DNA from: an uncultured Winogradskyella sp.
Lineage (GTDB): Bacteria; Bacteroidota; Bacteroidia; Flavobacteriales; Flavobacteriaceae
Reading direction: 5' to 3'
Length of the DNA: 64,000 nt
NCBI RefSeq assembly: GCF_937958655.1
Contig: NZ_CALGNH010000032.1
Location: forward strand, 1-64,000
Made by a program: the position numbers and the translations under genes. The notes under the pieces are model-generated. The model searched no databases. It was not told where the DNA came from and saw only the letters and a program-made list of their open reading frames with translations. Below, one piece after another: positions 38,520-41,591 of this stretch (positions are counted from its first letter, which is position 1; each line of letters starts with the position of its first letter).

Positions 38520-39128
38520 ATGGCTTTTGAATTACCACAATTAAAATATGCATATGATGCATTAGAACCACACATTGATGCGCGCACAATGGAAATCCAC
38601 CATTCTAAGCATCATAATGGATATACAACAAAATTAAATGCGGCTATTGAAGGAACCGATTTAGAAGGAAAATCTATCGAAGCGATTTTAAGTAATTTAG
38701 ATATGAATAACTCTGGAGTTAGAAATAATGGTGGCGGTTTTTACAATCACTCATTATTTTGGGAAGTAATGAACCCGGAAGATAGAGGTTATCTTTCAGG
38801 GGATTTAAAAGATGCTATCGATGAAGAATTTGGATCTAAAGAGGCATTTATAGAAGCATTTTCTAAAGCTGCTGCAACTCAATTTGGTTCTGGTTGGGCA
38901 TGGTTATGTGTACATAAAGGTGGTAAAGTAGAGGTTTGTTCAACTCCTAATCAAGATAATCCACTAATGCCAGGCGTTAGTTGTGGTGGCACACCGATAT
39001 TAGGTTTAGACGTATGGGAGCATGCATATTACTTAAATTACCAGAATAAAAGACCAGACTATATCGATGCTTTCTTTAATGTAATTAACTGGAATGAGGT
39101 TGAGCGTCGTTACGCTGAGGCAAAGTAG
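38520..39128 (+). CDS. Superoxide dismutase, Fe/Mn family
   Basis: A 202-residue cytosolic enzyme that dismutates superoxide. Metal ligands are H27 ([12 protein letters not shown]), a His in FYNHSLFW, and Asp and His in [11 protein letters not shown]. The segment NQDNPLMPG carries the Gln that is typical of the manganese form, so Mn is favoured, though cambialistic use is possible. Length is normal. It is monocistronic, with a box upstream and a terminator at 39152. Confidence 0.96.
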
Positions 39129-39266: not shown

Positions 39267-39274
39267 ATAAAATG

Positions 39275-39346
39275 AAAAAAGGTGAACAGAAGTTCACCTT
39301 TTTTGCCCCAAATCTACCATAAACTTAACCTACTTATGTTATGGTG
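39275..39346 (-). ncRNA. Candidate small RNA, copy A
   Basis: On the minus strand a TATATTTG box (39350-39357) is followed by CACCATAACATAAGTAGG and a body through TGGTAGATTTGGGGC, then a terminator with stem GGTGAAC/GTTCACC and flanking A and T runs (T run 39275-39280). The first part can fold as CCATAA/TTATGG. The 42-nt body is identical to copy B except for one base, while the flanks are unrelated. No reading frame of note. Expected transcript about 70 nt. It could match a known Bacteroidetes RNA family I cannot identify by eye. Confidence 0.55.
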
Positions 39347-39507
39347 AGTCAAATATAGGTTTACAATAATCTAACTTCTGTATTTATTGGATAAACGACC
39401 TATATATTAGTCTAAGCGTGGAAACTAGAACGAATCTCTAATATTAAGTAAAAAATTGAAAGTTTCTTTTACTAAACAACTTAAAGTATAACTTTAAGAG
39501 GGTGTAT

Positions 39508-39580
39508 AAAAAAAGGTGAACGATGTTCACCTTTTTTTGCCCCAAATCTACCATGAACTTAACCTACTTATGTTATGGTG
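39508..39580 (-). ncRNA. Candidate small RNA, copy B
   Basis: This second unit lies 233 bases from copy A and in the same orientation. It has TACATTAG (39584-39591, one mismatch from TAnnTTTG) exactly three bases before CACCATAACATAAG, the same spacing as copy A. The body has one substitution (TTCATGG for TTTATGG), and the terminator stem GGTGAAC/GTTCACC is kept while its loop differs (ATC against TTCT). It lies about 110 bases downstream of the purF stop on the same strand. Confidence 0.55.
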
Positions 39581-39692
39581 ATACTAATGTAACGCTATTT
39601 GTTAATAACTTATTACTTATCGGATGAAATACATTAAAATACGGTTAAATACAATATTTTTCGGATTAAATGCTTCTTAAAGGCTTATAAAT

Positions 39693-41591
39693 TTAATAAG
39701 CCCGCTCCTTGTTTCCTTCGTAGAAATTAATAAAGGCTCTGTTTACTACTCTATTTCCTCCATTTGTTGGATAATTTCCGGTAAAGTACCAGTCCCCTAA
39801 ATTTTTAGGGCATGCTTTATGAAGGTTTTCTACCGGTTGAAAAATAATTTTAACTTCTGCATTAACATCTTTAGCACTTAAGAGTTTAGATATCTTATCT
39901 GAAATTTGTTCATCAGAAAAATTATCGTAAATCTCTTTTACGTAATTAACAACGTTTGCATCGTCTAAATTAACCTGTTTTAAACATTTATTATAAACGT
40001 CCTCAACAATATGGTATTGATTATTGTCTTTTAGCAATGCCAAAGCTGCTCTAAAGGCTACTAAACTTTCAAGATTTGCCATATCAATGCCATAACAATC
40101 TGGATACCGAATTTGAGGAGCAGAAGATACCACTACGATTTTTTTAGGACCCAAACGATCCATCATTTTTATAATACTTTTTTTAAGTGTAGTACCTCGC
40201 ACAATACTATCGTCAATTATTACCAAGTTATCTGTTGGTTTTATGACACCATAAGTAACATCATATACATGCGCCACTAAATCATCTCTACTACTATCTT
40301 CTGTAATAAAGGTTCTTAGCTTAACATCTTTTATTGCTATTTTTTCTATTCGAGGTCTTTCAGATAATATCTCTGTTACTTTAGCTGCGGATAGTTTTCC
40401 ACCTCCATTTAAAATAGACTTTGTCTTTTTTGTGTTAAGGTGCTCTTCAACAGTATCTATCATTCCAAAGAATGAGGTTTCTGCCGTGTTAGGTATGAAT
40501 GAAAATACTGTATTCTCTGTATCATTATTTATAGCCTCAAGAACTTTAGGCATTAATAATCTTCCTAGCTCTTTGCGCTCTTCATAAATTTCGGCATCAC
40601 TACCTCGAGAAAAATAAATACGCTCAAAGGAACACGCTTTTCGTTCTAAAGGTTCTAGAATTTTTTTAATTTTTGTAGCACCAGACTTTTTAGTAATAAT
40701 AGCATGGCCAGGTTCTAGCTCCTTAACATCCTCAAAAGGTACATTAAACACAGTCTGTATTACGGGACGCTCAGAGGCAACCACCACAATTTCATCATCT
40801 TTATAATAATATGTTGGTCTTATACCTGCCGGATCTCTAAGTACAAAAGAATCTCCATGCCCTAGCAAACCAGCCATAGCATAACCACCATCCCAATTTT
40901 TTGCGGCACGTTTTAATATTTTTCCAACTTTAAGCCGTTCAGCAATAAGAGGTGATGATTCGTTTTTATTATAGCCTTCTTTTTTTAGATCTCTATATAT
41001 TTTTGAAACAGCATCATCTAAAAAATGACCAATCTTTTCCATTATTGTTATGGTATCTGTGTATTCTTTTGGGTGTTGACCTAACTCAATAAGGTTACCG
41101 AAAAGCTCTTTAACATTGGTCATGTTAAAGTTACCAGCCATAATTAAGTTTCTGTGTTGCCAATTATTTTGTCTTAAAAAAGGATGAACACTTTCTACAC
41201 TATTTTTACCAAAAGTACCATAACGCACGTGCCCAAGTAAAACTTCACCTATATAAGGAATATTCTTTTTTTGAGCAGTAACATCGTTGTTGTATTCTGG
41301 GTGAGCTGTTAATTCTTTATTGATGCGTTCGTTAATTTGTCCAAAAATATCTTGGATGGGTTGTTGCGCAACAGAACGCACTCTACTAATGTAACGTTCT
41401 CCTGGTTTAGTATCTAATTTTATACTTGCAAAACCAGCACCATCTTGGCCTCGGTTGTGCTGCTTTTCCATCATTAAATACATTTTATTTACACCATAAA
41501 ATGCACTACCATATTTTTTTTTGTAATAATCTAATGGTTTTAATAGTCTAATAAGTGCTATACCACACTCATGTTTTAAAGCATCACTCAT
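39693..41591 (-). CDS. purF: Amidophosphoribosyltransferase, long form
   Basis: A 632-residue enzyme for the first committed step of purine synthesis (PRPP plus glutamine to phosphoribosylamine). The nucleophile is Cys9 in HECGIALIRL after a short propeptide, and the glutaminase domain continues with HNRGQDGAGF and GHVRYGTFG. The PRPP-binding loop is VIIDDSIVRGTT (about 455-467). It is longer than E. coli PurF (505), as in the second Bacteroidetes PurF type, with a C-terminal extension. PurN is nearby on the same strand. A terminator-like hairpin stands directly before its start codon. Confidence 0.93.
   Translation of the reverse strand: MSDALKHECGIALIRLLKPLDYYKKKYGSAFYGVNKMYLMMEKQHNRGQDGAGFASIKLDTKPGERYISRVRSVAQQPIQDIFGQINERINKELTAHPEYNNDVTAQKKNIPYIGEVLLGHVRYGTFGKNSVESVHPFLRQNNWQHRNLIMAGNFNMTNVKELFGNLIELGQHPKEYTDTITIMEKIGHFLDDAVSKIYRDLKKEGYNKNESSPLIAERLKVGKILKRAAKNWDGGYAMAGLLGHGDSFVLRDPAGIRPTYYYKDDEIVVVASERPVIQTVFNVPFEDVKELEPGHAIITKKSGATKIKKILEPLERKACSFERIYFSRGSDAEIYEERKELGRLLMPKVLEAINNDTENTVFSFIPNTAETSFFGMIDTVEEHLNTKKTKSILNGGGKLSAAKVTEILSERPRIEKIAIKDVKLRTFITEDSSRDDLVAHVYDVTYGVIKPTDNLVIIDDSIVRGTTLKKSIIKMMDRLGPKKIVVVSSAPQIRYPDCYGIDMANLESLVAFRAALALLKDNNQYHIVEDVYNKCLKQVNLDDANVVNYVKEIYDNFSDEQISDKISKLLSAKDVNAEVKIIFQPVENLHKACPKNLGDWYFTGNYPTNGGNRVVNRAFINFYEGNKERAY

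Follow-up and report, generated by a model that had tools for sequence, protein, structure and literature searches.

Two short units lie on the minus strand of the window, by which we mean the whole stretch of 64,000 nucleotides that was analysed. They are flanked upstream by a gene that we take to be purF (39693..41591, minus strand), a name given in an earlier note, and downstream by a convergent gene, presumably sodA (38520..39128, plus strand), which from its sequence would encode a superoxide dismutase. The earlier note had described two minus-strand units of about 71 nt, and both the letters and a repeat search bear this out. Copy A occupies 39275..39345 (71 nt; covariance-model match 39274-39345) and copy B 39508..39579 (72 nt; covariance-model match 39508-39579), with a spacing of 234 bp in the repeat search. 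The copies share the body ACCATAACATAAGTAGGTTAAGTTYATGGTAGATTTGGGGCAAAA with one substitution, at RNA position 25 (T in A, C in B). On the 3' side of the body both continue with GGTGAAC-loop-GTTCACC and a T run, the loops being TTCT in A and ATC in B; this part is read from its letters as an intrinsic terminator (39275..39304 in A, 39508..39538 in B), and its stem covaries across the family.

Layout, constraint and promoter of the two units

The predicted RNA consists of a 5' hairpin with the loop GUAGG, an 11-nt linker, AGAUUUGGGGC, and the terminator, with fold z values of -4.0 and -4.2. Loop and linker are near-invariant across the family, and their predicted unpaired probability is 0.97-1.00. 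We refer to the loop as seed 1 (39329..39333 in copy A, RNA positions 13-17, predicted unpaired at 0.98-1.00; 39563..39567 in copy B) and to the linker as seed 2 (39305..39315 in copy A, RNA positions 31-41, at 0.97-1.00; 39539..39549 in copy B), all on the minus strand.

Covariation, which the earlier note had proposed as a check, favoured the terminator stem and not the 5' hairpin. In an alignment of 26 sequences, 6 of 14 terminator pairs have changed at both partners; the 5' hairpin has compensatory changes at none of its 11 pairs, and three pairs are broken in 4 of the 26 sequences, so its fold rests on energy. The covariance model R2 was built on a subset of 26 sequences that align without gaps, with a manually specified structure; it replaced model R1, a mixed alignment in which the sliding terminator kept RNAalifold from finding a useful fold. 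In divergent copies, many of them from genus g152 (probably Flavobacterium), the stem letters drift, and AGUAGGUU and GAUUUGGGG, which roughly coincide with the bases predicted to be unpaired, are kept with few exceptions.

As had been noted earlier, the boxes TATATTTG of copy A (39357-39350, minus strand) and TACATTAG of copy B (39591-39584, minus strand) stand three bases 5' of CACC. Both occupy -12 to -5 relative to the inferred +1 (A39345 and A39579), and the profile of 155 copies keeps the same letters (T-12 93%, A-11 94%, T-8 99%, T-7 94%, G-5 82%). This is the position of the flavobacterial sigma-A box described for Flavobacterium psychrophilum in PMC9723704. With a sigma-A box at -12 to -5, transcription would be expected to start at ACCATAAC in both copies, giving RNAs of 71 and 72 nt.

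The upstream flanks, which the earlier note had called unrelated, do have something in common: in the 155-copy profile a TTT..C.AAAA-like element recurs at a constant position, -50 to -39 (T at -49 in 94%, A at -42 in 85%). In the window its TTT falls at 39395 and 39629, and the copy A element, TTTATCC (39389..39395, minus strand), lies at -50, as that of copy B does. Copy B is preceded by direct repeats (39619..39674, minus strand) that start at about 39674, 39653 and 39633, the last being TGTATTTCATCCGAT; they resemble TGYATTTCATCCGA and follow one another at steps of 20-21 bp. We refer to this operator-like repeat as the TGYATTTCATCGA repeat. A strict test singles out the upstream motif in no more than 39 of 77 first RNA copies, and in 2 of 44 later ones. 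A well-kept block, TTCCACGCTTAGACTAATATATAGGTCGTTTATCC, precedes copy A (39389-39423, minus strand) in most of 30 loci of the genus and is absent before copy B; the two copies may thus answer to different signals.

Distribution and genomic neighbourhood

A search of Flavobacteriaceae genomes, as the earlier note had advised for the body, proved productive: at E<=0.01 the covariance model matched 170 of 199 genomes, of which 161 reached E<=4.8e-9, and gave no match in the other 29. The first sequence search matched 62 of 99 genomes, including 59 of the 60 of the same genus (our own counted) at E <= 4.0e-24. The sixtieth, G023, which is 78% complete, had a weak match only, to a target gene, and the two matches outside the genus (G081, G095) lacked the body. 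Many same-genus genomes carry, among the matches listed, two copies about 200-240 bp apart. When the model was run across 296 genomes of the phylum, 51 matched, 26 from the same family (E <= 2e-10) and 25 from outside it. The outside matches are weak, none exceeding 39.3 bits, and were not accepted as members: in the four sequences that were read, the common part was the terminator only. Plasmid and phage collections returned no match to the RNA.

An exact-pattern scan of named genomes yielded at least 115 stretches at no fewer than 80 loci, in Aquimarina, Algibacter, Kordia, Salegentibacter, Flavobacterium, Formosa, Mangrovimonas and others. Among the 80 loci listed, 41 hold one copy, 34 two and five three, and arrays of five to six copies occur elsewhere (L361, L359). 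In one genome of a related genus, five near-identical copies follow one another at steps of about 242 bp (L361:1501-2541). On the evidence of these sequences, the units are best described as paralogous small RNAs of one family, present in most of the sampled Flavobacteriaceae genera and absent from Rfam 15.

In 68 of the 80 named loci listed, purF precedes the RNA on the same strand at a distance of no more than 1.5 kb, and in most of the 80 the first copy begins about 85-150 bp beyond the end of the purF match. Among the 12 loci without purF, some, such as L222 and L264, have little sequence before the RNA; L195, L201, L212, L247, L249 and L272 have ample room there, yet no purF. Apart from this position, nothing speaks for the purine link that had been suggested: purF is the usual neighbour, but the products of the genes with conserved complementarity are small or secreted-type proteins.

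Complementary start-codon regions and the proposed mechanism

The loop and linker seeds are complementary to the start-codon regions of genes for a 41-aa protein, a CAP-domain lipoprotein and a 58-aa protein, with the target-leader letters ACCTACTT as the counterpart of the RNA seed GTAGG. The target genes of our own genome were first noticed through their sites, and relatives were then fetched by protein similarity, taking the best 30 loci for each protein (3 of 30 CAP and 1 of 30 58-aa loci could not be parsed). All 30 of the best 41-aa leaders pair with the RNA better than each of 100 dinucleotide shuffles (mean z -6.8), and the first run likewise gave 25 of 25 parsed loci with 200 shuffles. 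For the CAP lipoprotein, 26 of 27 parsed loci rank within the best 5 of 100 shuffles (mean z -3.5), as do 28 of 29 for the 58-aa protein (mean z -2.9), whose gene in our own genome has mainly the loop-seed site. The letters ACCTACTTATG stand at the start codon chosen by the script in 24 of 27 CAP and 24 of 29 58-aa loci. Start regions of control genes, which we presume to be sodA, purF, pfkB and scoB, gave mean z values of -0.15 (n=78), 0.29 (n=52), -0.56 (n=34) and -1.11 (n=14), respectively, and 3 of the 14 scoB regions fell within 2 of 50 shuffles. If one mismatch is allowed, the motif found upstream of the RNA also recurs before 26 of 27 CAP, 26 of 29 58-aa and 24 of 30 41-aa genes, in the best 30 loci of each.

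The CAP domain scores 41.2 bits against a cut-off of 21.1, and the label lipoprotein was given by eye. The 41-aa and 58-aa proteins have no match at cut-off, the former in Pfam or NCBIfam, and the C-terminal part of the 41-aa protein is conserved. Its gene was found in 80 of 199 family genomes by a protein profile search; a protein search found the CAP gene in 57 and the 58-aa gene in 59 of 60 genomes of the genus. Weak matches to the RNA in our own genome and its relatives are the complementary strand of 41-aa leaders, for example TTTTGCCCCAAATCTACCATAAACTAAAGCTTATG, and a third paralogue suggested by weaker matches in the genus was dropped, being the opposite strand of a target gene.

Across 60 genomes the two-block pattern occurs 254 times, against 198 for the reversed pattern, and about two matches per genome are the small-RNA genes themselves. 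The pattern thus has no genome-wide enrichment in these 60 genomes beyond the RNA genes, and for this reason single pattern matches are not claimed as targets. The 13 matches in our own genome comprise the two small-RNA genes, one CAP gene, one 22-aa ORF and nine positions inside longer frames.

Several individual sites deserve to be recorded. In our own genome, the 22-aa hydrophobic ORF (L110; C2:47175) has the leader AGTCCCAAATCTAAGAACTGACCGAGTTTATG (duplex -30.8), and a 236-aa protein with a signal-like start (L141; C69:5536) has the leader TTCCCAAACTATAAACCTACTTATTATG (duplex -24.0) and is a possible target. At L139:1480-1580 (C63:22022), likewise in our own genome, CCCAAAT and AACCTACTTAAG (duplex -30.3 kcal/mol) precede a gene that, from its sequence, we take to be gldL-like (gliding/T9SS). 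Near position 1036 of L048 the 41-aa leader contains a short upstream ORF of five codons (MNYCL) that overlaps the start codon, and similar leaders occur among the genome-wide matches to the two-block pattern. At L039:1000-1130 (G029:C58), two sites for the RNA are accompanied by a 3' hairpin, CCAGATCTTAACCTACTTAAGTTCTGG, and a T run, which makes this stretch a candidate sponge.

The early codons of the 41-aa gene form a further two-block site, (C)AAATCTACC-GAA-CCTACT, and in many loci two leader sites are joined by this third one in the coding region. Codon use in NLPEPT was counted in the 50 loci that have the gene out of 53 given (L039, L041 and L047 are without it): Leu is CTA in 44 (background 0.13), Pro is CCT in 47 (0.45) and Thr is ACT in 34 (0.29), the background being the long ORFs of the window. 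The binomial values for codon use refer to an earlier count (CTA 38/42) and leave relatedness aside. In NLPEQPT versions one codon is inserted and the spacer grows, with both pairing blocks kept. These patterns indicate that the synonymous codons in NLPEPT are fixed such that both pairing blocks persist; if the codon evidence holds, this would be a case of RNA pairing shaping protein sequence.

We assign a probability of about 0.82 to the whole explanation that the units are paralogous trans-acting antisense RNAs blocking translation initiation. Each unit would be transcribed from its own sigma-A-type promoter, starting at ACCAUAAC, and would end at its own terminator. The RNA would expose two single-stranded seeds, the GUAGG loop with its flanks (CAUAAGUAGGUU) and the linker, which would pair at flexible spacing with ACCUACUUAUG, bearing the start codon, and, upstream of it, with (C)CCAAAUCU in the messages for the 41-aa, CAP-domain and 58-aa proteins. 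Such pairing would most likely keep ribosomes from binding and so repress translation: coverage of the start codon points to repression of initiation, and because the exposed bases correspond to the start signals of a limited number of messages, translation of these is very probably turned down. Since one and the same operator-like repeat precedes the first RNA copy and the targets, RNA and targets are probably expressed jointly, with the RNA keeping target output in check; sharing an operator, it would damp or time the response. The regulator of the shared repeat could, as a guess, be a response regulator that binds direct repeats. The basis is sequence throughout: the genes, their conservation, the predicted fold, the complementary sites and the shared repeat are read from it, and from these we infer transcription, pairing in the cell, repression and the regulator. 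Two marks of a trans-acting antisense small RNA, an independent unit with promoter and intrinsic terminator and conserved complementarity to the initiation sites of unlinked mRNAs, are present at the level of sequence. Conservation across the family, the promoter box, the terminator and the conserved complementary sites appear to lend good support to the earlier view of two trans-acting small-RNA genes. As a tentative extension, on which we would not bet at even odds, the RNA may be a two-seed hub across the family, with an operator common to it and its targets, whose pairing fixed the codons, and through them the amino acids NLPxPT, of a small protein, and for which the 41-aa message is both target and sponge.

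A stronger role for that message would make the RNA mainly the regulated party, with the 41-aa leader and early codons, carrying up to three sites, acting as a sponge that titrates it. The two leader sites and the third coding-region site in many loci fit this, as does the G029 leader, which is similar, is without the 41-aa ORF and has a terminator-like hairpin whose loop CCTAC mirrors GTAGG (duplex -48.5 kcal/mol); the conserved C-terminal part of the 41-aa protein, however, makes it look like a real gene, and the last leader site extends as far as the start codon, in keeping with repression, so we consider this reading unlikely, if still the strongest competitor. We judge it improbable that the RNA instead acts as an activator, whether by unfolding an inhibitory leader or by shielding the mRNA: an upstream repeat common to RNA and targets is what co-activated partners would have, but the start codon itself lies within the sites, and pairing there should impede initiation. 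CsrB and 6S are decoy RNAs that sequester proteins, and very strong sequence conservation in multiple copies would suit such a decoy, or an mRNA for a short peptide; the two target-matched seeds nevertheless explain the conservation, and the ORF from ATGGTAG enters the variable terminator and ends differently in A and B, which leaves this reading with very little probability. Least probable of all is that the units are the purF 3'UTR or cis elements (an attenuator or processed 3' end) with no trans role, as the closeness of the first copy to purF might suggest, given their own promoter box, their one to three copies in named loci and up to five to six elsewhere, and the conserved complementary sites in unlinked genes.

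Comparison with known systems

The earlier suggestion of Flavo-1 was not borne out: no Rfam family matched at its gathering score in the window or in the loci of eight relatives, and Flavo-1 is missing from the lax lists too. RmaA, BTnc231, STnc250 and other Rfam families were rejected as all below gathering, the RmaA match lying on the other strand and aligning chiefly along the terminator palindrome. BTncRNA_FopS (RF04319) scored 21.3 bits (E 0.66 and 0.15) where its gathering threshold is 56, short of membership. The titles and abstract openings of the papers found by literature search contain no report of this RNA, which could stand unnamed in supplements such as the Rfp list or the F. columnare candidates (PMC5395568).

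According to PMC9723704, F. psychrophilum has 45 non-antisense RNAs (Rfp), a deletion mutant of a base-pairing small RNA has been described in the Flavobacteriaceae, and F. psychrophilum lacks Shine-Dalgarno signals. Rfp18 of that species is described there as conserved and as predicted to pair with mRNAs through its third stem-loop, with metalloprotease targets; our RNA has two predicted hairpins and other targets, though it may nonetheless be identical with Rfp18 or another of the 45. Base-pairing small RNAs have been little studied in the Flavobacteriaceae, to which this family adds a conserved target set and a candidate operator, and it offers a direct way into start-codon control in bacteria without Shine-Dalgarno signals.

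As regards a type I toxin-antitoxin pair, in which a toxic small hydrophobic protein is joined by an antisense RNA, the 41-aa protein matches no known family at cut-off, the RNA and the 41-aa mRNA are encoded on different contigs, and there are further candidate targets. The sibling RNAs OmrA/OmrB and LhrC1-7 belong to other phyla and are unrelated in sequence to the RNA described here. Like them it comes in near-identical copies with common seeds, in this case two separate, near-invariant ones. These siblings are named in PMC11697453, which presents FopS/GibS of Bacteroides as multicopy paralogous small RNAs that pair through a conserved 5' part and end in an intrinsic terminator; FopS represses translation of susC-like mRNAs. 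Our RNA resembles FopS in its multiple copies, its terminator and its complementarity to initiation regions, and shares with it UUCAUGGU and the letters AGAUUU. FopS alone, as described in the same paper, begins with a single-stranded part and has no hairpin there, is present in 14 copies spread over multiple loci and acts on susC-like targets. FopS is thus a member of another family that works alike, the likeness on our side being one of complementarity only and directed at other targets.
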